This document shows positions 1,962 to 52,742 of a stretch of 64,000 nucleotides of DNA, in pieces. The translations under genes were made by a program, and so were the position numbers. The notes below the pieces were generated by a model. The model worked only from the letters and a program-made list of their open reading frames with translations. It ran no database searches and was not told where the DNA came from. Position 1 is the first letter of the stretch. The number at the start of each line of letters is the position of its first letter. The stretch lies in NCBI RefSeq assembly GCF_018873765.1, contig NC_057919.1, positions 69,186,984 through 69,250,983 on the forward strand, given 5' to 3'. The stretch is from Telopea speciosissima. Taxonomy: Eukaryota; Streptophyta; Magnoliopsida; Proteales; Proteaceae.

Positions 1962-4110
1962 TTGCAAAAACTCGCCGAGATCTCAGCCCAACTCGATTTT
2001 TTCGTGGGCCGAGTTGGCTCTGAGACCCGAGTTTTCGGACCATGGTCTAGGAATGACTTCCTTCCCTATGCTGCTGCCATCAAGCTTGATGGTACGAATT
2101 ATTTAATCTGGGCCAGATCACTATCCTTGACTGTGGCTGGTAGGGGATTCACTGGCCATCTTACTGGCACCACCAAACAACCAGCTGAAGAAGGTGTTGC
2201 CCGTACTAAATGGGCTGCGAACGATGCTATGGTGATGTCATTTGTTTTAAATTCTATGACCACTGATCTATCCAGTCAATATCTCCTCCTTGACACTGCT
2301 ACTCAGATATGGACTGCTGTCAAGGGAACTTATGGTCGATCAGGAAGTGGTGCTCAGGTTTATGAAATCAGGAAGACACTCCAAACCACTACTCAGAAGG
2401 AGATGTTTGTTACTAAATACTATGCTGCCCTCAAGTGTTTATGGCAACAATTGGATCATTATGCTCGATTCCAGTCTACTACTACTGCTGATATTATTGC
2501 CTACCACACCTATGTAGACCAATTCCGTGTCTATGATTTTCTGGCTTGCCTCAATGATGACTATGACCCTATTCGGGTGCAAGTCCTTGGATAGGTTCCT
2601 TTCCCCACTTTAGAGGAGACTTTTTCTTATGTTCACAGTGAAGAGACACGAAGGGCTGCCATGATGATGACTCCTAAAGTTGAGAGATTAGCCTTACAGA
2701 CTGCTGGTCCCACTCCTGTTGCTTCTTCTGATAGTGTTGCTGCTTCCACTACTACTACCAAAGAGCCTGTTAAGTGTGAGCATTGTCACAAACCATATCA
2801 CACTAAGACTCAGTGTTAGAAATTACATGGGAAGCCAGCTGATTTTGAGGCCAAACGTGGTCGTGCTAAGTCTAAAAACAAAGCCAATCATACTGAAAGT
2901 GTAGCTCCAACTCCCACTGCTAACATTGGTTTCTTCCAGGAAGAACTCCAGGCTTTGCGTCGTATGTTGAACACATCAACTGCCTCTACTACGTCTGCTG
3001 CCAATTCAGGTTCCTTCTTTACCCATATAGGTATTTCTTTTGCTGGTCATTGTGCATCAGTAGTATCCACTCCATGGATCATAGACTCTGGTGCTACTGA
3101 TCACATGACAGGTTCTTCTAGCCATTTTAATACATACTCTCCTGCCTCTGGTAAGGATAAAGTCAAAATTGCTGATGGGTCCCTCTCCTCCATCTCAGGG
3201 AAAGGATCCATTGGTTGTTCTCCTTCCCTTACACTGTCATCTGTGTTGCATATTCCCAAATTTACAACTAACCTTCTTTCCATTAGCAGTATCACTAAAT
3301 CCCTGAATTGTAAAGTGATCTTTTTTCCCACTCAATGTGTTTTTAGGAACTGGACTCGGGGAAGACGATTGGATCGGGTAAAGTGCATGGCGGATTGTAC
3401 CTGCTTGATGGCGATCCTACTCAGGCTTTACCTTCGGCATCTTTCTCTTTTGATTTACATAAATGGCACTCTAAACTAGGCCATCCCCCCTTAGGTACTT
3501 TATCAAATTTATTTCTAGCATTAGTTAAAGACTGTAATAAGGAAGAATTTTTTTGTGAGCCTTGTGTCTTGGCTAAACAGACGTTTCAACTTATCCTATT
3601 TCTAATAAAAGATCCTCTTCCTTATTTCATATTGTTCATACTGATGTGTAGGGGCCTAGTCGGAAAGCTTCCCTGACTGGCCATCGGTGGTATGTCACTT
3701 TCATTGACTGCTATTCTAGGTTCACTTGGGTATACCTTATGCACACAAAGAGTGAAGTTTTTTTATGTTTTCAACACTTTAATCAACTGATTAAGACCTA
3801 GTTTAATGCCACTCTTCAAATTTTGAGGAGTGACAATGGGAAAGAGTATATGGAAGGTCAGTTCCAAAAATACCTTGCTGCACATGGAATCCTCCATCAG
3901 ACCAGCTATGTCGACACTCTAGCCCAAAATGGTGTGGCTGAGAGAAAAAACCGCCACCTCCAGGGCCCTTATGTTTGCTCGCAATGTCCCTTCCCTTTAT
4001 TGGGGGGATGTTGTCCTTCCTGCAGCCTAATTAATTAATAGGCTGCCCAGTCGGGTTCTTCTTTCAAGAGCCCCTATTGAGCTATTACTTGGCTCTTTCT
4101 CCTTTATAGT
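1962..4110 (+). pseudogene. copia gag-protease-integrase region, broken
   Basis: Gag reads LDGTNYLIWA and on to about 2590, where a TAG interrupts it. The same frame resumes to a CCHC knuckle (CEHCHKPYHTKTQC near 2776-2817), where a second TAG sits at the position usually occupied by Trp in copia knuckles. The aspartic protease motif DSGATDH lies at about 3085. A frameshift near 3345 moves to another frame holding the integrase HHCC zinc site (HKWHSKLGHP then CEPCVLAKQT), and another follows near 3590. The integrase core (SDNGKEY, about 3828) is in yet another frame, with an additional stop before 4040. This is a decayed copy with at least three stops and several indels. Confidence 0.85.
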
Positions 4111-4120
4111 CCCACCTAAG

Positions 4121-6322
4121 GTGTTTGGCTGCGTTTGTTATGCTAGGGATACAAGGTCCCCTGGTAAACTTGACCCACGTAGCCTCCGATGCATTTTCTT
4201 GAGTTACTCTGCCACCCAAAAGGGGTACAAATGTTACTACCCTCCATCCCGTAGGACTTTTGTCAGCATGGATGTTGTCTTTCATGAAAATGTTCCATAT
4301 TATGTGTCCCCACCTCTTCAGGGGGAGAGTGTAAGTGAAGACGTGCTGACTATTGACTCTCCACCTCCACTTCAGTCTGTTTACCATGAGTCTAAACCAG
4401 TTCGGCCTGCCCCTAGTACTCCCCCTGAGTCAGGGGGAGAGGTTCCTATACAGGGGGAGACCATTTCTATTCAGGGGGAGCAATCTACCCCGGTCCAGAC
4501 TCCTATCCGGAGGACTATTAGTGAATTTCAGAGGAGGATTGATGCCAATAATGAGAAGACCTATGCAAGGAAACATAAGCAGGTTCAATCAACTGTTGCT
4601 CCAGTACCCATCCAATTGCCGAACCCGGATCCAGAACCTGCCTCTCCACCTGGTAATGATTCTGACTTACCTATTGCTCTTCGCAAAGGTGTCAAAACTT
4701 GCACTCAGCATCCCATATCTCATGTTGTTTCTTATGATTCCCTTTCCCCATCCTTTCGTGCCTTTGTTTCCTCTCTTTCTTCTGTTCGTATTCCTAACAA
4801 TTGGCAAGAAGCTTTATCAGACGGAAAGTGGAAGGCAGCTATGATGGAAGAAATGGACGCCTTGAAGAAAAATAACACATGGGAGCTTGTGGTTCTTCCA
4901 CCTGGGAAGAAAACCGTTGGATGTAAATGGGTGTTTGTGGTGGAACAAAAGGTGGATGGCACTGTGGATAGGTATAAGGCACGACTCGTGGCCAAGGGGT
5001 TCACTCAGACATACGGCATTGATTACCAGGAAACTTTTGCACCTGTTGCAAAGTTAAATATTGTTCGTGTGTTATTATCTTGTGCAGTCAACCTTGGATG
5101 GGATTTGCAGCAGCTAGATGTAAAAAATGTCTTCCTAAATGGAACACTGGATGAGGAGGTGTATATGGACATCCCACCAGGGTTCTCTTGTGACAGAAAC
5201 CAAGGAAAAGTATGTAGACTGAAGCGTGCATTTTATGGTCTGAAGCAGTCACCTCGAGCATGGTTTGGCCGGTTCCACAAGGCCATGATTTCTGTGGGCT
5301 ATAAGCAGAGTAATGCTGATCACACACTCTTTATAAAGAGAGTTGGTGAAAAACTCATTGTTCTTATAGTCTACGTTGATGATATAGTGGTTACTGGCAA
5401 TGATGGTGATGAGATCAGACGGTTGAAGACCTTCCTTGGACAAGAATTTGAGATTAAAGATCTAGGGAAACTACGATACTTTCTTGGGATTGAAGTAGCC
5501 AGATCTTCTAAAGGCATTTTTCTCTCCCAAAGGAAGTATGTCCTAGACTTATTGGCTAAGATCGGGTTGCTAGGCTGTCATCCTTCAGACACTCCTATGG
5601 ACCCTACTGTTCGACTCAAGGAGAAAGAGGGTGAGCTTGTTGATAAAAGCCGGTACCAAAGACTTGTAGGGAAGCTAATTAATCTTTCACACACGCGTCC
5701 TGACATTGCTGTCGCCATGAGTACTGTGAGCCAGTTTATGCATGATCCCTACTCTTCTCATATGGAGGTTGTTCTTCGTATCTTGCACTATTTGAAGTTA
5801 GCTCCTGAAAAAGGAATTCTTTTGTCTACTCATGGTCATCTACGGATAGAAGCATACACTGATGCTGATTGGGCTGGTTCTGCAGATCAGAAGTCTATTT
5901 CTGGGTATTGCTCCTTTGTAGGTGGAAATCTTGTCACATGGCGTAGCAAGAAGCAAAATGTGGTTGCTCGTTCTAGTGCCGAAGTTGAGTTTCGAGCTAT
6001 GGCACAAGGTATTTGTGAGTTACTATGGCTTAAAGGTTTGCTACAAGATCTTGGTGTTCCTATTCGTCTTCCTATGATGCTGTACTGCGACAACAAGGCT
6101 GCCATCAGCATAGCACACAACCCAATACAGCATGATCGTACCAAGCATGTTGAGGTGGATAGGCATTTCATCAAAGAGAAGTTAGAAGCTGGGCTGATTT
6201 GTATTCCCTTTGTGACATCTACGGATCAACTTGCTGATATCTTTACCAAGGGATTGTCTGGAAAATTGTTTCATCCCAATCTAGTCAAGTTGGGCATGAT
6301 CGACATCTTTGCTCCAACTTGA
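4121..6322 (+). CDS. copia reverse transcriptase-RNase H open frame
   Basis: One open frame of about 733 codons, beginning without a convincing ATG because it continues from the broken integrase. The early part holds the end of integrase (FGCVCYARD). A proline-rich linker repeats the residues QGE several times. The RT core follows: KARLVAKGFTQ, QLDVKNVFLNG (usual motif LDVKNAFL), YGLKQSPRAWF and the catalytic YVDDIVVTG. RNase H of the copia type follows (YTDADWAG, VARSSAEVEFRAMA, DNKAAI). It ends in TGA at 6320-6322, immediately on the polypurine tract. The Asp residues of the RT active site are intact. Without gag and integrase in frame it cannot act alone. Confidence 0.88.
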   Translation: MFGCVCYARDTRSPGKLDPRSLRCIFLSYSATQKGYKCYYPPSRRTFVSMDVVFHENVPYYVSPPLQGESVSEDVLTIDSPPPLQSVYHESKPVRPAPSTPPESGGEVPIQGETISIQGEQSTPVQTPIRRTISEFQRRIDANNEKTYARKHKQVQSTVAPVPIQLPNPDPEPASPPGNDSDLPIALRKGVKTCTQHPISHVVSYDSLSPSFRAFVSSLSSVRIPNNWQEALSDGKWKAAMMEEMDALKKNNTWELVVLPPGKKTVGCKWVFVVEQKVDGTVDRYKARLVAKGFTQTYGIDYQETFAPVAKLNIVRVLLSCAVNLGWDLQQLDVKNVFLNGTLDEEVYMDIPPGFSCDRNQGKVCRLKRAFYGLKQSPRAWFGRFHKAMISVGYKQSNADHTLFIKRVGEKLIVLIVYVDDIVVTGNDGDEIRRLKTFLGQEFEIKDLGKLRYFLGIEVARSSKGIFLSQRKYVLDLLAKIGLLGCHPSDTPMDPTVRLKEKEGELVDKSRYQRLVGKLINLSHTRPDIAVAMSTVSQFMHDPYSSHMEVVLRILHYLKLAPEKGILLSTHGHLRIEAYTDADWAGSADQKSISGYCSFVGGNLVTWRSKKQNVVARSSAEVEFRAMAQGICELLWLKGLLQDLGVPIRLPMMLYCDNKAAISIAHNPIQHDRTKHVEVDRHFIKEKLEAGLICIPFVTSTDQLADIFTKGLSGKLFHPNLVKLGMIDIFAPT

Positions 6323-40512: not shown

Positions 40513-41830
40513 TTAAGGGCGTCTTTGGTATAGTTTTTATTTTTTATTTTTATCTTAAAAAAGGCTTTTGGTTGCATTTGGTATCATTTATAGAGCCTGT
40601 TTCTATTTAAAAAAGATTACAAAAATAAACAAAAACAAAAAATAGATCGAAAGCCATTTATGGTTTTTGACAAAAAATCACTTTTGACCATTTATGCAGA
40701 GACTTTAATGAGCACGTGTTGTTCATAGATCTAAAAATCAAAGGGTAAAAATGTCATTTCCTTGTTTAATAAGGAATATCGACCATCCTCCATTTTCTTC
40801 TTCTTCTTCTTCCTGCGACCCCATTTGCCACTTCTCATTCTTCTTATTCTTCCTGCAACTCCACCTGCCCTCTCATCTTCTTCTTCCTGCAAATCCATCA
40901 CCTCTGAAAATAAAGAACAACAACTACTGCCCCTCTCTCCACCACCTATCCTGAACCCCAATGACCTCTTGCTTGCTAATCCAATCGTCTGGGATATGAA
41001 TTTTCTAGTCTTATGACACTATTGTTTTCATGAATTGTTCAATTCCGGTGGAACACAATTTCATGTACATACCCTCTATCATGGGGTGAGCCCTTATATT
41101 TATGCAGAGTGTGTCGGGCTCCTGTGGTCGACTGTATTCTTACTGACATTCAGGATTATCCAAATGATGGTATTCAATACAATAGGGATTGTCTTTCTTA
41201 CTGCTACGACTCGGTTCTGAGTTTATGCTTTGGGAAGGTAGAGGTGGCATCTCTCCACCCACCCACTTCAAAAAACTAATAAGCACATAGGTATGCCAAA
41301 CATAATTCTTTGTCTATAATCTATTTTGAGTAGTGATTACCAAACGATTTTTATGTTTTGATAAAATAAAAAAAAAGGGAAAATATCATCCCCCTCCCCT
41401 CTAAGTTTGCCTAATATCAATCCAGTACCCAAGTTTTGAAAAATATCTTCCCCCTCCCCTACTTTATAAAGTTACTATCAACCGTACCCTAAGTATGTAA
41501 CGCTGTTAAAAAAACATGTGTAAAGACAAAATTACCCTTTTTAATATCTAAAAAACCTATTGAATGTTTTCTGGGTAGGACACGTGTAAAGCAATATATC
41601 TAATGGTTACTATTGAATTTTTCAAAATTTCTTTGTTAAAAGCGGTTGAGAGAAGCAACACAAGCTGGACCGGTCAGACAAACCAAACATGACCTGGCCC
41701 AGCTCGGTTTGCACTAACAAAACCCGGACAAACCAACCGATTGCGTTTGGTTGTGTAAATTTCTGGATGTCTGCATTGATTCATATGTAACATCCATAGA
41801 TCAGAGTATCTGTGGATGAACGAATATGAT

Positions 41831-41962
41831 AGAATAACTGTTTGGTTACCCTGATTCTGAAACTTGAATCTACTAGAATAACTGTTTGGTTACCCTGATT
41901 CTGAAACCTGAATCTACTAGAATAATTGTTTGGTTACCTTGATTTTGAAACCTGAATCTACC
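41831..41962 (+). repeat. Three tandem 44-bp subterminal repeats of element C
   Basis: Units start at 41831, 41875 and 41919 (core AACTGTTTGGTTACCCTGAT). They lie about 90 bases inside the left end of the Harbinger element, where accessory-protein or transposase binding sites are known in related elements; binding here is inference. Confidence 0.75.
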
Positions 41963-42359
41963 TAAAATGTGATAAAATGTAATATGAAATAAATTATTTA
42001 TACTAATTATTTTATAATTTAGTAATAATAAAATATACTCACAATTAGAATATAAGTATTTAAAAATTTTAGTATTTCTACTTAATAATTTAATTATGTG
42101 TGCACATTTTCTTCCATGCAACCTCTTTAATTAATTATATGAAATTTTAATTATATGATGCTTTGGTTGAATGATTTTAATTATATGATGCCTTAGTTGA
42201 ATGATTTTTTCCGACAATAGAAGAGTTAAATAGAATTCAGTCAAACATGTTGGTTCATATTTTGGTGTCACTTGATTCAAGTACATAAAACAAAAAAAGA
42301 GGGTCTGACAATGCCTTGTGATTTTGTCACATTCTCTTCCTTCCTCCCAAGATCTCGTC

Positions 42360-44616
42360 CTACTTGTTAATGTTTAGTTTTTTGCTAATGTCCAGGATAT
42401 CCTCCAAATCCTTTGTATGTTTTTGGGAAGCTGATATTTTTGCTTCAACAATGCCTTGCAGATAGTTTGTGTCAGGACTTGGTGTTGATGTGACAGGTGT
42501 AAGATCCTCGGTGGTATTCCTTATTTGCTGGTCTGAAGATGAAGATTCTCCTTCATCTATAAATTTGAAATATCCACAACCTTCTTTTTTCTCCTACAAA
42601 CAAATAAATCAATACTTTGTAATTAATTCAAGGGTAAAGTACACGTACCCCCCTAGAATGCACCTAATATTCCTCGTACCCCCCTAAGCGGCTCAATATT
42701 CCACGTACCACCCCTCAATATTCCACGTACCACCCCTGCTTTACACCCCAAATGCCATTTAAGTCCACACCAGGTATTAAATGCTATAAAATGACCAAAC
42801 TACCCTTTCTTCTATCTTTTCTAAAATTTGAAAAGACCTAATTGCCCTGACCTATTTGCTAAAATTTGAAAAGACTAAAATGCCATCATCTTCCCCAAAT
42901 CATCATCTTCTTTTACATACCCCCACCATCACCACCACCACCACCATCACTACTCCAAGTTCTGAACTTCTTAATCGCACCTCCCTCCCCTCCCTCAACG
43001 GCTCAACCTTCTCAACTTTCATAGGTACCGATCTGTGTCACCCACCATAGTCCGTAATCGAGAAAATTGCCAGAATCCACTCCTTCACGGGTTCAATTCC
43101 TTTACTTCCTCAATCTCCTCTAGATTTTTCATCTTTCGAACCCCACAATCTCTTGATCATGCTCTGCAAAGATTCATTTTTTTTCCTTAAGAAAACTTAG
43201 TCATTTGCTACTTAACCCAGATCTGCTTGATTACCAGGATCAGGAAAAAATTACTCAAAAGGGGAGAAACCCTCACCTCACTATGTATTCTTCCTTCGAA
43301 ATCCGAATTGAGAGCAACCGATGCACAGACTAGATAAACACCATCAGAATGGCCTCAGCGCTAGACTTTTCAAGTGGAATCGAGTGAATTTAACAATTAA
43401 CACCACCCACATCCCTATTTTGAAGCGAGCATCTCAGCCCAGTTAGGTATTGTGTCTTATCTCTTCATCAAGATTCAAAACCTAACTAATTAACCAGAGA
43501 TTATCCCCTAAATGGCTTTGATCGCAGCCAACGTGTCACTCGATGGCTGTTTAGGTATAGCACGACATCAAATTGATTCTCACCCACCCGGTAATATAGC
43601 ATATTCGAAGCTTATCTTTCCACTTTCCTCCCCCCATCACCTGCTGCCTAAACCGCTAACTGCAACTCTGCCTGACGAAACAGTAATTTAAAAATAAATA
43701 AAAAACCACTCTGTACTCATCATTTACATGCCTTACTGTCTGAGCATAAGCATCTCAGGCAGTACTGAAAAAGATCTCTCTTTTCGTTTTCTTTCAAATT
43801 TTGAAGAAAATGGAACATTTTATTTCTAGTGTGAAAGGAAAAAAATTATGTATAAACGCAACGGAAACTGCTTCCTCTCTCTCTCTCTCTCTCTCTCTTT
43901 CTTCTTTCTATTCCTTTCAAATTTTGCACAGAAAGGTGGAGGAGTTAGAAGTGGGGCTTTACGATGGTGATGTGTTAATGGTGGGTGGTGGTGGCGGCGG
44001 CGGCAGCGCTGGTGGTGGTGGTGGTGGTGGTATTGGGTATCTACATTGTAAGAAGATGATGATTTGGGGAAGATGAGGGTATTTTAGTCTTTTCAAATTT
44101 TAGCAAATAGGTCAGGGCAATTAGGTCTTTTCAAATTTTAGAAAAGATAGAAGAAATGGTAGTTTGGTCATTTTATAGCATTTAATACCTGGTGTGGACT
44201 TAAATGGCATTTGAGGTGTAAAGCAGGGGTGGTATGTGGAATATTGAGGGGTGGTACGTGGAATATTGAGCCGCTTAGGGGGGTACGAGGAATATTGGGT
44301 GCATTCTAGGGGGGTACGTGTACTTTACCCTTAATTCAATGGGGTCTAAACAAATTATACATTATGGTAAGCGTAGTCATACCGGGGTGGATTGTGGGCA
44401 ACACCAAAAATCTCGTCCTTTTCCAAGTCCTTGCTTGCACCTACGAACCTTGCATTGCCCTTGTCCACATGGGCAAATTCGTAAGTGGTCCACCCACATA
44501 AAAAAATCTTTGTGCACACGGCATTTATAGAATCGTCTTCCCGGGTTAGTCGCCTTATTCGACGTCAATATTATACATTTACGACCACAATCCTCACAAC
44601 TTGTCACATTATCCAT
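42360..44616 (-). CDS. Double GRF-type zinc-finger protein of the Harbinger element
   Basis: Two minus-strand exons, 44616-44383 and 42593-42360, each 234 nt, join in phase 0 with GT-AG borders into 155 residues. The first GRF finger reads CEDCGRKCIILTSN, NPGRRFYKC, FFMWVD. The second is CPCGQGQCKVRRC, GRDFWCCP, completed only after splicing by GCGYFKFIDE. The C-terminal part is a Ser/Thr-rich linker and a charged helix ending LNINK. The complementary halves of finger 2 across the intron show that the splice is real. The intron (42594-44382) contains the whole transposon D. GRF fingers bind nucleic acid in topoisomerase III, NEIL3 and APE2. Here the position inside a Harbinger element suggests an accessory DNA-binding role. 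Confidence 0.78.
42632..44330. mobile_element. Level 4 of nest: long-TIR Mutator-like element D (family 1)
   Basis: The ends GGGTAAAGTACACGTACCCC and its complement are near-perfect and arms run about 300 bases. The flanks TTAATTCAA at 42623-42631 and 44331-44339 are identical, a 9-bp Mutator-type duplication. The arm sequence matches 11341-12101. The interior (about 43030-43860) has no recognised gene; it includes a CT microsatellite at 43874-43898 and unassigned genic-looking sequence. It lies inside the intron of the GRF gene, so its insertion need not have destroyed the reading frame. Confidence 0.9.
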
Positions 44617-44639
44617 CTACATTGAAAGATAAGGTAAGA

Positions 44640-46100
44640 CCGACAAAAATCTCAAGAGTAATGTGTAAGCTCAATTAGAAGAAAAGTACCACACATTGAA
44701 GATGTATGTGGTAAATAAATATAAGTATGAATGTGGAAGAAATGTTGGTGATGTTGGAAAACAAAAAGGACATATTCCTTATGGTATAAATCCACTTATT
44801 TTGTTGAAAGGCAAAAGAAAATCCCCATACATGAGGCACACAATGAAATTGTCCCTACTAAGGGAAAGGGGATGAGAAAAAGAAGGGGAGGGGGGAAGGG
44901 AAGGTAGCTACATCACTTGTCCTTTGAAATATTAGCAAACAGCTGTTAAAACTATTCCAAAATCCACCTATTCCTAAGGGCATCTGAACGTGTCATACCT
45001 GATCTTATTAACCAGATAAGCATCAATCAAGTGTCATACCAGATCTTCACACTCATCAGATTGTACACTCGAGAGGATTATATACCAAACTATCAGGTCT
45101 CATATCCATCCGTATATAACACCGATAAATTGAACGGAATCAGACAATAAAATCTACCTAGGTAAAGTAAAATTAGAGAGAGATAAAAAAAAAAAATGCC
45201 TTACTTCACAATTCTACACAAAATGAAACCCCCTGGTAAGATGTTATCTTGTTCTGCCTAGTACAAGCATTTCTTCTAAAAACTGAGAAGCCAATTAATC
45301 CAAACTAGGCTAGTCCTTAACATTGTAAGAGTGTGGCGGAGAAGAAAAAATTCTAAGATTCTTCAGGGTATATAACCACTAATATTTTGTTAGAAGGCAA
45401 CAGAAAATCCGTCTATTTCCAAGGGAAAAGATACGAAAATTCAATGCCTCAACAGACCGGTGTAACAATAATAAAGAAAAACACACCCAGAAAAAATTTT
45501 GAGGACAACCTCTATTTCCCAAGAACAATTTTGAAGCATGACAACTACATGTTCGAAGAAAACTCATCCTTCTACAAAAACTCAACAATAAGCATTCCGG
45601 ATCAAACCAAAAGATGAAACAAATTCAACAGTTCAACACCAAATATAGTATCACAAGATTGAACAAAAATCTTAATCAACCCCAAAAAAAAAAAACGAAA
45701 TAATGGCCACTAAAATAATTTTTTCTTCACCTAGTCCTAGCACATTTAAAAGGCTTTAAGATTACCAAAAAGAACAGTAAAATTTTCCTGTAGAATATAA
45801 AGACAGTAAATATTTTCAAACCAAGCACATGATCACAGATCTGAATCCACATAAAGCATCTATTGTAGCAAATAAAAGAGACACATCAGTTTTGTACCAA
45901 ACAGAAGAGAAATCAGTTTTAGAGCAAATAAAAAAAAAATCCACAACCAAACAGTTTTCAGCCTACTTTGTCTAGCATCTTAAACTGGCAAATATATGTC
46001 CAATATTGCCATCCTTTCTTCTTCATTTTCTTCCATTAATATGTTTGCTAAGGTCTTGTTGTCCAGAAAAAATCTTTTGGCAGCACATTTCTTGTTAAAA
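44640..46100. other. Interior of element C without a gene
   Basis: AT-rich sequence between the GRF gene and the second ORF. The two overlapping open frames at 45379-45617 on opposite strands have no domain. Confidence 0.45.
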
Positions 46101-46101
46101 T

Positions 46102-46573
46102 CTATGCCTGAAATTGCATTGATTGTAGCAAACAGATTGCTACAAAATTAGCTGGTGAGTCTTTCTTAACCATTTTATTGATTGCTTTAGCTATTGCCTT
46201 TAAAGGACTAGCTACCTTATCAGCTCCCCCCTTTTTTATTCTTCGCTTTGCCACTTGTGGCATCTGAACGTGGCCTACGACCACTACGATTGCTACTTCC
46301 CACTGGAATTCCACTGGCATTTAGTTGGGCTTGACCGTCTTCATAAACATCAAAGTCCATGTTGTCTAAACCATCAATTGGCACAGAATCAATATTATCA
46401 TCATGAAGTGAATCAAATGGGTGAAAAGAACCACGCCGTGTCGCAATCTCATTCCCCATCCAAACTGCAACATCCAAATGCCGTTGAAGCACTCTATGCT
46501 CTCTCCAAAATTTTTCTTTCTTTCTCGGCCAAGAGACAATTGGGAGATAATGTTAATATAATATAATACAGTA
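46102..46573 (-). pseudogene. Harbinger second ORF (MYB/SANT-like type), C-terminal remnant with frameshift
   Basis: Minus-strand frame 1 (to about 46220) reads KKEKFWREHRVLQRHLDVAV, MGNEIATRRGSF, a D-rich stretch and a basic SNRSGRRPRSDATS segment. It then hits a stop. Frame 2 continues with ADKVASPLKAIAKAINKM and ends at 46102. The switch falls in a run of six C and six T at 46226-46237, a classic single-base indel site. Composition and position fit the C-terminal half of the MYB/SANT-like protein that accompanies PIF/Harbinger transposases. The N-terminal DNA-binding domain is not visible in the 160 bases before the transposase, so it is lost or in an unrecognised exon. Confidence 0.55.
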
Positions 46574-46733
46574 GATTATGACCTCTGAATCATGCATAGG
46601 AAAATATCCAAAACATGTTCAAATGATTAAAACTTAATTACAACCAAATTAGAATATATGAAAATGTCCAAAACATGTTCAAATGTTTAAAATTAAGATT
46701 ACATCATTAAAAAAAAAAACCCCATGAAATAGT

Positions 46734-48008
46734 TCAATCGTCAACATCTGTCATATAATCATCATCATCATCATCTCTTGCATTCCAACCAGCCCACATG
46801 TTGTCCGCCAATTTCTCTCGATATTCATCCCAATGATCATCACCAACAACAACCCCTTCATCATCAATGGGAACAATATCATCATCATCATCTTCTTCCT
46901 CATCTGTTTCATCATTGCTGCTAGAAGATTTATCATCGCTGCTCTCGTTTTCTAAAAACTCTTCTTCTTCAAGAGTATTTTGAGTAAGAATATGATTATG
47001 AAGAAGAACACATGCTACTACAATCATTGTTTGCGTCTTAAAAGGATATTCTGCCTGATTTTTCAATATCTTGAATCGTGACTTTAGTAGAGAAAAGGCA
47101 TGTTCAATTATATTGCATAGCGAAGAATGACGCAAGTTAAACAATTCCTTTTTATCAGTTGGATGCATATTAGAGTTTTGCCACTCTTTCAGATGATACC
47201 GAACATTACGGTATGGCCTCAGGAACCCCCTCTGATTTGCAAACCCAGCATCAACAAGATAGTATTTATCTGGAGGGACCACCATCTTTGTTTCTCCATT
47301 TCTGCGAAGGGCTTCATATAATACTCTAGAATCTGATGCTGATCCTTCCCAACCAGATAATATGTAAGTAAACCTCGTGTCAAAATCACAGGCAACTAAT
47401 ATATTCTGAGATATATTTCCCTTCCTATCGTAAAATGTCTTATGTTTATCTACCGAAACCCACGTTGGGACATGTGAACCATCAATGGCGCCAATGCAAT
47501 CCTTGAAGAATGGGTAGAACCTTCTACTACCTGATATTCGATCATGAATTCTTCTAGTTGGAGGCTTCAATAAAATTGGAGCCAATTTAATTGTTGCACC
47601 CAGCACAATATTGAAGTATCGACTGATAGTCTCGCCTGAATGGCCTAAATCATGTAGAACCTTACGGTTCTTAAGGTTGTGGCCAATTGTTTGTAAAAAA
47701 ATTACCAGCTGCTCCTCCACTTGCATTGATCTGCTATCTTGTAGAAGGCCCCTCTCTCGCATCATTTTACTTAAACTAAAAAATGCTCTTCTGCTCATTC
47801 TTGTAATGTTTCGACATGTGGTGTCACATACCCCTATGATTCTTTGTGTCTCAAGATAGCCACGGTTTCGCTCATCACGATATGATTGTCTAACCAAATA
47901 CGTTCTTTTATAATACTCCGCTCCTAGAACAGCAGCAACAGTTGCTAATACAATTATTTTTTTCTTGCGCTCTTGGTAGGCCTCATCAGTCTCATGTACA
48001 GTATCCAT
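46734..48008 (-). CDS. PIF/Harbinger DDE transposase, intact
   Basis: Single-exon frame of 424 residues from ATG 48008. Motifs in order: a helix-turn-helix-like segment LGHSGETISRYFN (about 121-133); GAIDGSHV with catalytic Asp 176; ACDFDTRFTYILSGWEGSAS, the Harbinger signature; VDAGFANQRGFL with catalytic Asp 253; and NIIEHAFSLLKSRFKIL with catalytic Glu 302. All three acidic residues of the DDE_Tnp_4 fold are present, with no stop or shift. The last 80 residues are a strongly acidic Ser/Asp/Glu tail. Harbinger transposases need a MYB-like partner for nuclear import and DNA binding; here that partner ORF is damaged, so mobility would depend on help in trans. Confidence 0.92.
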   Translation of the reverse strand: MDTVHETDEAYQERKKKIIVLATVAAVLGAEYYKRTYLVRQSYRDERNRGYLETQRIIGVCDTTCRNITRMSRRAFFSLSKMMRERGLLQDSRSMQVEEQLVIFLQTIGHNLKNRKVLHDLGHSGETISRYFNIVLGATIKLAPILLKPPTRRIHDRISGSRRFYPFFKDCIGAIDGSHVPTWVSVDKHKTFYDRKGNISQNILVACDFDTRFTYILSGWEGSASDSRVLYEALRRNGETKMVVPPDKYYLVDAGFANQRGFLRPYRNVRYHLKEWQNSNMHPTDKKELFNLRHSSLCNIIEHAFSLLKSRFKILKNQAEYPFKTQTMIVVACVLLHNHILTQNTLEEEEFLENESSDDKSSSSNDETDEEEDDDDDIVPIDDEGVVVGDDHWDEYREKLADNMWAGWNARDDDDDDYMTDVDD

Positions 48009-50066
48009 GTAATATGTATATCTACAAATAAAAATGTAAAGACACTAGAACTCAGAACTATCCTCATGCAAAACTCACTGTTTGCATTAGAACTCCTATA
48101 GGTGGATGTACTTCATATTGGACTGATTGGAGGATGATAAGAGAACAAAAATATACATGCAAATTCAATAAAATTGCAACCCAATCATAAGGCTGTTCAA
48201 TACACAATGTTTCCACAGAGTTTTGACTTTAAATATGGTTTATATTCACCCAAGTTACAACATGAATTGCAATTTCAGTACACCACACTGAATTGATCTT
48301 AGATATGCATATGGTTTCTTAAGCATCAAACTATTCAAATAAGAAATAAAAGAGTTGAAAATTACAGCAGAACCATTTAGGAATGGACCTCTCATGAGCA
48401 ATACAATTGCATATGAACAAGCATTTAAGAATGAACAAGTACATAATTATGAGAGGTTGATGGGTTTTAAACACCATAGCACAAGCCTCAGCTGCCATTT
48501 ATTTCTAAGGCTACATCTAAGATGCAAGGAGGAAGGAGCATAGGACTCCTCCCCCCACCCCTCCCTCCCAATCTCCCTTATTCTAGGTGTCTAAAGGCTG
48601 AAAATAAATCTGATAATATGACGCAGACCAATGCTGCACAACCATATGTAAGATTCCAACCACGAAAAACATGACGTGATCATAAATGATGGCTGGAGGC
48701 AACAGAGTACCAATTTTGATGATGCATTAATAGTAGTTAAAATTTCGTCTGCATCATTGATTTAAAAGTGCCAGAAACAAGCCAATGAAGCAATGATTTG
48801 GAAGGGGATGCTGCAGCTAGCCAAACCATATTTAGTCTGGAAAATGTATTAAAACAATTGAACAATTCTGGAAAATGGAAATCCTAATATTTAATCTTCA
48901 GTTTTCTCCTATAAAGTGATGCCTCTCTTTCTCTGATGTTCGGTTTTCTCCTAGAAATCCTTCATTCTTCGGTTTTTTTTTTTTTTCTTTCCCATTCTTG
49001 TGTTTCACAGAATAAATCATGAAACACCATTACTCTATCTTGGGTAGTATCTATTTTAGTAAGGTTATTTTCATGGACTGATGAAGTTAGTATAAAACGA
49101 AGGATGCTGGCAATAACATGTTGAGATTAAGAATAAATAAATTGAATACAAAAAATTTCATGAGAGTTCTCTGAGTTTCATCTAATGACCCCCAAGCATG
49201 AGGTACCGAAAACCATTACAATGTATAATCCCCAACATAAAATCCAATCCAACATTAACTACCGAAAAACATTACAATCAGCAAAACCACAAAATACTCA
49301 ACATAAAATTCAGAAAATCATTAAGAATAGATGAAATTTGTGAGATTTATGAAATCTAGGGTTCAACCATGAGAGAAGAACGAAGGGAAAAATGGATTTT
49401 TTGTGCAGATTTCGAGTCAATAATGGCAACAAAACTCGCAACCTTCTGTTCATCGTTGAACCCTAAAAATTTTGTGGACCAAGGAACAGGGTTAGGGAGA
49501 AGACGGGCGAAGAGAGAGTGAGGACCAAGGTTTCGAAGCAATACTTGGAGAGTTCAGCAAGTCGATCGAGTAGCAGAGAGTTCAAAAAGTTGATTGAGTA
49601 GCAGAGATTAGCCTGGGCTTTGAGTTCCATTGAAGAAGATCTTCCCAGAGAGAGCGAGACAGAGAGAGACGGACACAGAGAGATACAGAGAGTGAGAGCA
49701 AGAGAGAGGAAGGAAGTACCTGCTCAGGTCTTGCTTGCAAATCTTCGAACGATTGCTCTTCAGGTCTTCGCTTGCAGAGATCTTCGAACAGTAGATTTTT
49801 AGGTTTCAAGAACAATCGATTTTTTACCCGATAATTTCTGCATCTTCAAATACATGACTTTTTATACCCTGCCCCTGTAAGTTGTGCATCTTTAGATTTC
49901 ATCTATTGAGGTGGAATCTCAAGATTCTAATTTTTACACTAAAATGATACATCTCAAGATTTTGTGTATCTCCGGCAAATCTATTTTTTCAACCAAACTG
50001 GAAAAAAATTTGAGATTCATACATCTGCGGATATAACACCTACAGATTTATGCAACCAAACGCACT
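48009..50066. other. 5' region of the Harbinger transposase gene
   Basis: Leader and possible promoter of the transposase on the minus strand; a GA-rich segment at 49645-49712 is the main compositional feature. Open frames here lack domains. Confidence 0.4.
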
Positions 50067-50083
50067 CTTAGATTTTCAAATCC

Positions 50084-50625
50084 TTAAGATTTTCAAAATC
50101 CAGCTCATCGTCTTCTTCCTCTGCTATCTGTGGCTCTGCTTCCTCCCTCTCCATGAACCTTTGGAACTTCAAATCGTTGTGGTTTTCTAACATAAGCCCT
50201 AACCCTTTCTCTCCCTCTCTCTTACCAAACCCTCTCCCCTCACCGCTCCTCTCAGCTCTCACGGCGACGGTACTGTGTGCTCGCAGGCGACGGCGAGGGC
50301 TACGCCGATGGTACACAACCTACTTCCTCTCTCATCTACTCACCCTGAACCTTCGTCATTGCATCTTTCGACTCAGGTGAAAAAACAGCCTCAAATCCGC
50401 CTAGTAGGATGATCGGAATCTAAAGTTGCAGCAGAGTCGGCGGGTTTGATGGTGGGAGAGAATGGGTTTGATGATTGTGAGATAAAGAAAATGAGAAAAA
50501 AAAAGAAACAAAAAAGAAAAGAAAGAAGACATTAGTAGAAGAAGAAGTGCATCAGTCGTTCATCCATTTTTGTTGTTGACATTCCTTTTTCCCAAAATGG
50601 GTGCTCCTCCCTTGTGGACACCAGG
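50084..50625. repeat. Inner half of left arm of element B
   Basis: Inverted copy of 51670-52250. On the minus strand it contains an open segment beginning MLENHNDLKFQRFMEREE followed by an acidic run. The right arm has the same protein segment with changes, so the arms may carry a captured exon. Confidence 0.7.
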
Positions 50626-51669
50626 AACTTGATCAGGGATTAATAAATGAATCATATTGGAAAGATGTAGTCCATTTATCAAATTTATATTTACTTGATT
50701 AAGTTCTATCGACTTGAAAACTTACAGGTTGCCACCTCTTCAATTCATATCAGAATCCTATTTGCAAATGGTGATGTGCAATTAATCCAACCATTAGAAA
50801 AATAAGAAATGGTTTGAGTTGGCCACATAAAACAAGGAGAATCTCATATTGGACTTTAGATCAAGGAGGAAGGCATAATACTGCCGGCAAGTTGCAGTTA
50901 GATTTCAGTAAAACTTATGATCTGTAGCTTCATTGTCAGGAAAGCTTAAAATCATACAAACAGAGCACTTTAAAACAATTTAATTAGGGAAAGCAAGAAT
51001 TCAAGCAACATCTCCCAACCTCATAATCATTTTCAAAGCCTAAAACCTATTCACCCACTTATGATTCTTCTTCATAACCTTTCCCAGCCTTAAGAAAAGG
51101 TCCCTGAATAACAGATCATTTTCCAAAGAAATGGCTACATTTACACCAACAGCTTTTCAAGCCTTATTTATCATAAATTGCATGCATCCACAAGAGCTCT
51201 TCTGATATACCCAATACGAATCATAATGGCAAAAACAATGGCGATTTAACTATTCTGAAAGAATGAGATGTTGGTGATAACAACATCTCTTAAAATGTTA
51301 AAACTGCAATATCTTTCTGTCCTAAAGCAACTTCTATACCCTACCCTACTGGATACTAAAAGTCCAACTAAACCAAACCAACAATAATTCCTTTTGGCAT
51401 CCCATTGACTGAACCATGTTTTCCTTGATCCCTACGTCTGATTGATCATCATCCATCACAGAAACAATCACAAAAACTTTTAGTATAAAGCTTGGTTGAG
51501 TTGAGCCATTAGTTTCACCAAAAAAAAAGTTGAGCCATTAGAATGAGATAGAAGCATAAACCAAAGAGCGAGGAATATGTTAATAGCACTTGAAATCTTG
51601 TGGAGTTCACAAGCAACTGATTTTAAATACATTTAAGGTACGAACAAAATATTACAAATTACATAGGAA
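50626..51669. other. Central unique segment of element B
   Basis: About 1 kb between the two arms. AT-rich, no long frame and no transposase motif. Confidence 0.5.
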
Positions 51670-52099
51670 TTTTAACAGGGGAGGGGAGAGCACCCATTTC
51701 GGGAAAAAGGAATTTTAACAACAAAAATGGAAGCCGAGACAATGTTGCCGGCCATGGACGAACGACTGCTGCACTTCTTCTTCTACTTCTTCTACTAATC
51801 TCTCCTTTCTTTTTTTTCTTTTTTTTCTCATTTCCTTTCATCTCACGATCATCAAACCCATTCTCTCCCACCAACAAACCCGCCGGCTCTGCTGCAACTT
51901 CAAATTCCGATGATCCTACCAGGCGGATTTGAGGCCGTTTCTTCACCTGAATCGAAAGATGCAACGACGAAGGTGCAGGGTGAGTAGATGAGAGCAGCAG
52001 CAAGTCGTATACCGTCGTCGTCGCCCTCGCCGTCGCCTGCGAACACATACTACCGGCGCCGTGAGAGCTGAGAGGAGCGGTGAGGGGAAGGGTTTGGTA

Positions 52100-52133
<34 letters not shown>

Positions 52134-52551
52134 AGGGCTTATGTTAGAAAATCAAAACGACTCGAAGTTCCAAAGGTTCACGGAGGGGGAGGAAGTAGAT
52201 CCACAGAGAGGAGAGGAAGAAGACGATGAGCTGGGTTTTGAAACTCTTAGGGTTTTGTTAGTGCAAACCGAACTGGGCCAGGTCAGTTTTGGTTTGTCTG
52301 ACCGGTCCAGCTTGGGTTGCCTCTCAAGGGGATTTTGGGATTGGAGGGGTAAAAATGAAATTAAAATAAATTAAAGATAATTTGGGGTTTTAGATAAAGC
52401 GGACCTGTCCACATCATCAATTAATGGTAGTTTTTAACTGTTTGGGTACGGTTGATAGTAATTTTATAAAGTAAAAAAGCGCGAAGATATTTTTCAAAAC
52501 TTGGGTATTGGATTTAGAAGGCAAACTTAGAGGGAGGGGGATGATATTTTT
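51670..52551. repeat. Right arm of element B
   Basis: Uninterrupted arm. + strand frame from 52141 starts MLENQNDSKFQRFTEGEE, paralogous to the left-arm segment; (GA)n at 52101-52126 is longer than in the left arm. Confidence 0.7.
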
Positions 52552-52742
52552 TGTTTTCATTAATGATTTTTGTTAAATAGGTAAAAATAAAAAATACACA
52601 TGATACCAAAGAGAGCCTAACACCTCTCATTTTTTGGTTTCTCTCGGCTCTTCCCCTTTTCTTTTTGATAGTCTCCATCTTCCCTGGAGAAATGAAGCTC
52701 AAACCCTAGGCGAAGGACTCCATCTTCCCATTTGAACGACGA

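Follow-up and report, generated by a model that had tools for sequence, protein, structure and literature searches.

A conserved double-GRF zinc-finger gene is the third gene of a PIF/Harbinger transposon lineage in Telopea speciosissima

PIF/Harbinger transposons are described in the available text of PMC2836001 as two-protein systems, in which an ORF1 (MYB) protein and a transposase suffice for movement, and which also mobilise the Tourist-like MITEs of plants. Can such an element carry a third gene of its own? The question is raised by a 64,000-nucleotide stretch of the Telopea speciosissima genome (hereafter the window), in which the original prediction had read a spliced open reading frame encoding two GRF fingers as a third ORF of a Harbinger element. 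We asked whether this gene belongs to the element or merely sits within it, and what its product might do.

The PIF/Harbinger element of the window spans 8329 bp (41739..50067), including 1708 bp of a later insert with its duplication, and carries its genes on the minus strand. Its left terminal inverted repeat, on the 3′ side of the genes (41739..41770, plus strand), begins GATTGCGTTTGGTTG and is flanked by ACC, with filler in place of TTA and no intact duplication; the right repeat, on the 5′ side (50036..50067, minus strand), begins GAGTGCGTTTGGTTG and is followed by TTA at 50068-50070. The DDE transposase ORF (46734..48008, minus strand; 424 aa) is free of stops and is matched over its full length by the Pfam profile PF13359 (E = 6.7e-25), with Plant_tran also above its cut-off. 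The predicted pair of transposase and MYB/SANT gene stands for the open transposase but not for an intact partner, as the MYB/SANT ORF1 of the window copy is a C-terminal remnant with a broken frame (45983..46552, minus strand). Its MYB-domain 5′ part, about 490-500 bp in relatives, is gone at 46603/46610, and in those relatives the missing stretch encodes a MYB/SANT domain (PF12776, E = 7e-14 in L040 and 2.5e-13 in L042). The window copy is a damaged and worn one.

Several other features surround these genes. Just inside the left Harbinger end (41822-41961) we observed three direct copies at 44-bp spacing that contain TGTTTGGTTACC, which are possible subterminal binding repeats. A larger inverted-repeat, foldback-like element (40522-52612) holds the Harbinger element in one of its arms; the arm segments 40522-41725 and 50077-50612 pair in pieces with 51682-52612. 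Further away, at 421-1656 and 1962-6322, are open frames that by eye resemble the C-terminus of a hAT transposase and a polyprotein of the Copia type.

The GRF gene has two exons on the minus strand. Exon 1 (44383..44616) encodes finger 1 together with the greater part of finger 2, and exon 2 (42360..42593) supplies the last cysteine of finger 2, a linker, a C-terminal tail that appears helical by eye, and a stop codon at 42360; within the window the gene thus occupies 42360-44616 and its spliced product is 155 aa long. The prediction of a spliced ORF with two GRF fingers is borne out by this model together with a search using the GRF profile, the check that had been proposed for it: Pfam PF06839 matches two stretches of the spliced protein (E = 1.4e-16) at 60.8 bits, against a curated cut-off of 25.9. 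The Pfam search gave neither a glycosylase nor a nuclease domain. The intron (42594..44382, minus strand; GT..AG, phase 0, 1789 bp, enlarged by an insert) does split finger 2, as had been claimed, and falls just before its last cysteine, so that only spliced messages would complete the finger; the ligand set of finger 2 is complete only in the spliced form. In finger 1 the putative zinc ligands are C7, C10, C32 and possibly the invariant H35, the usual fourth cysteine being absent. Across nine aligned exon-1 rows chosen from four families, 32 columns are invariant, with C32 and C50 each absent from one row, and at the other end of the protein a KKLxxNK-like motif closes the tail in most of the exon-2 matches extending that far.

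The best solved sequence relatives of this protein are NEIL3 tandem GRF structures, matched over residues 6-94 (E = 2.6e-5) and 7-93 (E = 3.6e-5). An AlphaFold model of exon 1, which is weak (mean pLDDT 63) and in which the exon boundary truncates finger 2, also returned two NEIL3 tandem GRF chains and the APE2 GRF as its top three PDB matches; the best NEIL3 match reached E = 9.2e-4 but with a TM score of 0.45 and an rmsd of 12.8, and APE2 gave E = 0.022, both to be read in light of the weak model.

The unusual length of the intron has a simple origin. In the window copy it consists of an ordinary 81-bp intron, a 1699-bp insert and a 9-bp target duplication (TTAATTCAA), and the empty insertion site is kept in relatives L042/L049 and L054. 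The insert is a long-TIR repeat (42632..44330, no strand assigned; duplications at 42623-42631 and 44331-44339) whose inverted ends of 280 bp are 98% identical, and which we call MULE-like because the target duplication is 9 bp. Using one end as a genome query yielded 41 listed matches (best 40 of 1838 candidates scored), of which two are the window's own arms and one is a fragment adjoining another match.

We compared six relatives whose transposases are 84-90% identical to that of the window. In five of them, transposase, MYB and GRF follow one another in that order on one strand; the sixth, L044, is truncated, matching only transposase residues 1-377, with neither MYB nor GRF in the 4.4 kb beyond the transposase match. 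The left end of the window element is common to L039, L040, L041 and L043, and the right end aligned too. In the four relatives with both ends, these read GAATGCGTTTGGTTG and GAACGTGTTTGGTTG (GAACATGTTTGGTTA in L039), and all four are flanked by perfect TTA or TAA duplications, which is the Harbinger signature. The proposal that other copies would hold the GRF ORF between the same ends therefore holds in four of four.

To place these copies in the wider genome, we surveyed the 823 Mb (1287 contigs) from which the window comes, all of our evidence being from this one genome, with genome-wide searches in which the best 150 candidates were scored. Merging gave 91 transposase loci (from 103 rows plus five further loci), 160 GRF loci and 104 MYB loci. 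Among these best candidates scored, 57/91 transposase loci have GRF on their downstream side in the same orientation, 74/91 have MYB there and 53/91 have both, with MYB in the middle in all 53. Where GRF and transposase lie within 12 kb of each other, GRF follows on the transposase's own strand in 58 pairs, precedes it on that strand in none and is on the opposite strand in two, while random placement of one GRF match set produced a mean of 0.1 pairs (maximum 1); chance neighbourhood is ruled out by these orientation counts and placements. One locus (C11:37325755-37328877, at 37.33 Mb, part of which is held by L076) has a MYB match upstream of the transposase on the same strand, giving the order MYB, transposase, GRF in a deep relative whose transposase is 34-46% identical, so the transposase-MYB-GRF order is usual rather than universal. 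Separately, we observed MYB-like matches about 2.5 kb before divergent GRF matches at C4:34.49 Mb, C5:43.22 Mb and a second place at C11:37.32 Mb.

The original prediction named two findings that would speak against it, and both turned up in part. Members lacking the GRF ORF exist in the form of the truncated L044 and of 34/91 transposase loci without a GRF match among the best candidates scored; many of these are fragments, and two (C2:358882 and C5:61982748) combine an open transposase and a MYB match with no GRF match among the candidates scored. As to GRF genes outside Harbinger ends, 69/89 GRF loci with a best identity of at least 55% have an upstream transposase or MYB and 20/89 have no such match, but three of the five lone loci that we read (L054, L055 and L074, the others being L060 and L072) adjoin a Harbinger end with TWA despite having no transposase or MYB match. 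Because each still adjoins such an end, these three look like deletion derivatives.

We scanned the first kilobase beyond exon 2 for the 11-base inverted end with at most two substitutions, requiring TAA or TTA after three or four further bases, and found a Harbinger end with TWA within 1 kb after GRF at 20/23 distinct loci. Mononucleotide shuffles gave a mean of 0.21 (maximum 3), reversed sequence gave 1, and the kilobase preceding exon 1 gave 1. The three remaining loci are the window copy (L053), where the end is present and the TWA lost; L060, which has the end without TWA; and L072, which has neither. The GRF gene is accordingly shown to be the third gene, nearest the element's 3′ end, in a PIF/Harbinger lineage, in agreement with the predicted third ORF.

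The gene is also conserved in structure and sequence. Its intron position is common to the 23 distinct GRF loci to within a codon; all have a GT donor, and all an AG acceptor except where it is decayed (L049, L054, L060 and L072). Intron lengths, the window's excepted, are 80-82, 91-93 or 110-119 bp, with 80-82 bp in relatives of the window's clade, and the intron sits at the same place in L076, beside its far-diverged transposase. Matches that continue across residue 78 had hinted at an intronless subfamily; L076, the one member read, has an intron there, and we dropped the idea. Comparisons between families give an exon-1 dN/dS of 0.08-0.29 in 15/18 pairs (three pairs being saturated and some others near saturation), and those within families 0.18-0.35 (three pairs). 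As judged from these sequence comparisons, purifying selection is shown to keep the GRF gene across families with transposases that share 46-70% identity with that of the window. In the window's clade, pooling gives a dN/dS of 0.51 for GRF against 0.70 for the transposase, pairs taken singly against the window range over 0.23-0.78 and 0.43-1.41, respectively, and several GRF copies contain stops; such ratios are expected because copies decay. With all 54 pairs included, GRF and transposase identities to the window correlate (rho = 0.47), but they do not once the window's own clade is removed (rho = 0.04, n = 43), and we therefore claim no co-phylogeny. Beyond this genome, we found no relatives among viral_contigs and one weak partial match among genome_contigs (Acidovorax, 38%, residues 26-75).

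Could the gene instead have been captured from the host and travel as a passenger, or be a host gene lying by chance beside a transposase? Gene capture by transposons does occur, and host repair proteins contain GRF domains, as stated in the portion of PMC9266487 available. We nevertheless consider this origin very improbable: a passenger would not account for a side and strand fixed relative to the transposase (58 pairs vs. 2), for an element end adjoining GRF at 20 of the 23 loci, or for purifying selection between families and an intron common to diverged families. Passenger capture is disfavoured on these grounds, and the fixed arrangement, adjoining ends, shared intron and low dN/dS together lead us to regard the GRF gene, with near certainty, as a conserved third ORF encoded by the element.

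What its product does is a matter of graded likelihood. That it acts as an accessory factor of transposition has, in our judgement, about an even chance. According to the accessible text of PMC9266487, the GRF fingers of NEIL3 bind single-stranded or forked DNA, and by analogy the transposon protein would give the transposition complex a means of binding single strands or forks, its two GRF ribbons holding single-stranded or forked DNA at the ends of the element, in the donor gap or at a replication fork, and its conserved C-terminal tail attaching it to itself, to the transposase or to the MYB protein. We advance this specific mechanism tentatively, at slightly short of even chances; studied elements move by ORF1 and transposase alone, which makes a third protein dispensable in general. 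A rather doubtful alternative is that the protein recruits or mimics base-excision or demethylation machinery, by which the element would stay expressed or have its gap repaired. Repair enzymes such as NEIL3 and APE2 do bear GRF domains (PMC9266487, in the text available), and a second transposon superfamily has GRF genes too, as a general anti-host function predicts; the lack of any glycosylase or nuclease domain in the Pfam search counts against this reading, which fits the sequence no better than does the accessory one. It is improbable, in turn, that the gene is a negative regulator, with the GRF protein, or a short form made by intron retention, titrating DNA ends or MYB and so limiting copy number. 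The conserved place at which the intron splits finger 2 would suit such a role, as would the immediate stop (GTA TGA) that intron read-through meets in the window family and in L067/L073, but the early stop is missing from two other families (e.g., L064 and L068).

The second superfamily is that of the MULEs. The strongest Pfam GRF matches included another GRF type (L004-L008), with a single GRF, a coiled coil and a membrane helix, the latter two judged by eye. Adjoining L008, at the one locus where MULE domains were checked, is a MULE transposase whose frame is broken (PF03108, E = 6.2e-16; PF10551, E = 6.3e-9; SWIM, E = 7.8e-8). Pairing a 136-row single-GRF set with MULE matches placed a single-GRF match tail-to-tail within 6 kb of 55/150 MULE C-terminal matches (best candidates scored), with one pair on the same strand and none upstream. 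The two types kept apart: no double-GRF match from the one set used neighboured a MULE C-terminal match, and no single-GRF match from the 136 rows neighboured a Harbinger transposase. A divergent double-GRF form (47-53% identical) lies within 12 kb of 6/150 PF10551 matches (best candidates scored), tail-to-tail in all six, at 3.5-4.6 kb in four and 10-11.5 kb in two. The MULE-side GRF genes seen here are either single-GRF and, judged by eye, of a membrane type or divergent double-GRF, and stand tail-to-tail with the transposase, an observation drawn from loci L004-L008 and L075 and the genome-wide tables. We think it somewhat probable that GRF zinc-ribbon proteins form a general accessory gene class of plant cut-and-paste transposons, with Harbinger tandem-GRF and MULE types sharing a single-strand-DNA or host-interaction step, and that many plant "GRF-type domain" genes are transposon genes.

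Our literature search, which lay outside subscription papers and Repbase notes, found no report of a GRF gene in Harbinger or MULE elements; what it did bring up included, going by titles, papers on ostracod transposons, on Medicago LTR elements and on expression, mapping or genomic resources. The available text of PMC10359422 lists GRF-type fingers beside transposon domains among Asteraceae-enriched families, which fits a GRF-transposon link that this text leaves unstated. A conserved third gene suggests a so far unrecognised helper in element movement or control, and with a third protein akin to repair modules that bind single-stranded DNA, the two-protein scheme would gain a step; for Harbinger, yeast and Arabidopsis assays already exist in which this reading can be tested directly. 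The presence of GRF genes in MULEs as well points to a need common to two superfamilies, and many plant genes annotated merely as "GRF-type domain" would be reclassified.

Set against known systems, the element resembles rice Ping/Pong-type PIF/Harbinger elements as described in the accessible part of PMC2836001, with a DDE_Tnp_4 transposase, a MYB/SANT ORF1 (here in relatives), GCGTTTGGTTG-type inverted ends and 3-bp TTA/TAA duplications; it differs in that the members described there need two proteins, whereas this element adds a conserved two-GRF third ORF. The GRF protein shares with NEIL3 (PDB 7jl5, 7omk) two tandem GRF ribbons, over residues 6-94, and the APE2 Zf-GRF (PDB 5u6z) is likewise among its nearest solved relatives. 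Unlike either, it is transposon-encoded, has its own C-terminal tail and no enzyme domain that we found, and bears a His in place of the last Cys of finger 1. MuDR-type MULEs carry a convergent second gene (mudrA/mudrB). The MULE transposases of the window's genome are similar in having a tail-to-tail GRF gene, but they belong to another superfamily than the element studied here, and their GRF genes mostly encode a single GRF with a coiled coil and a membrane helix.
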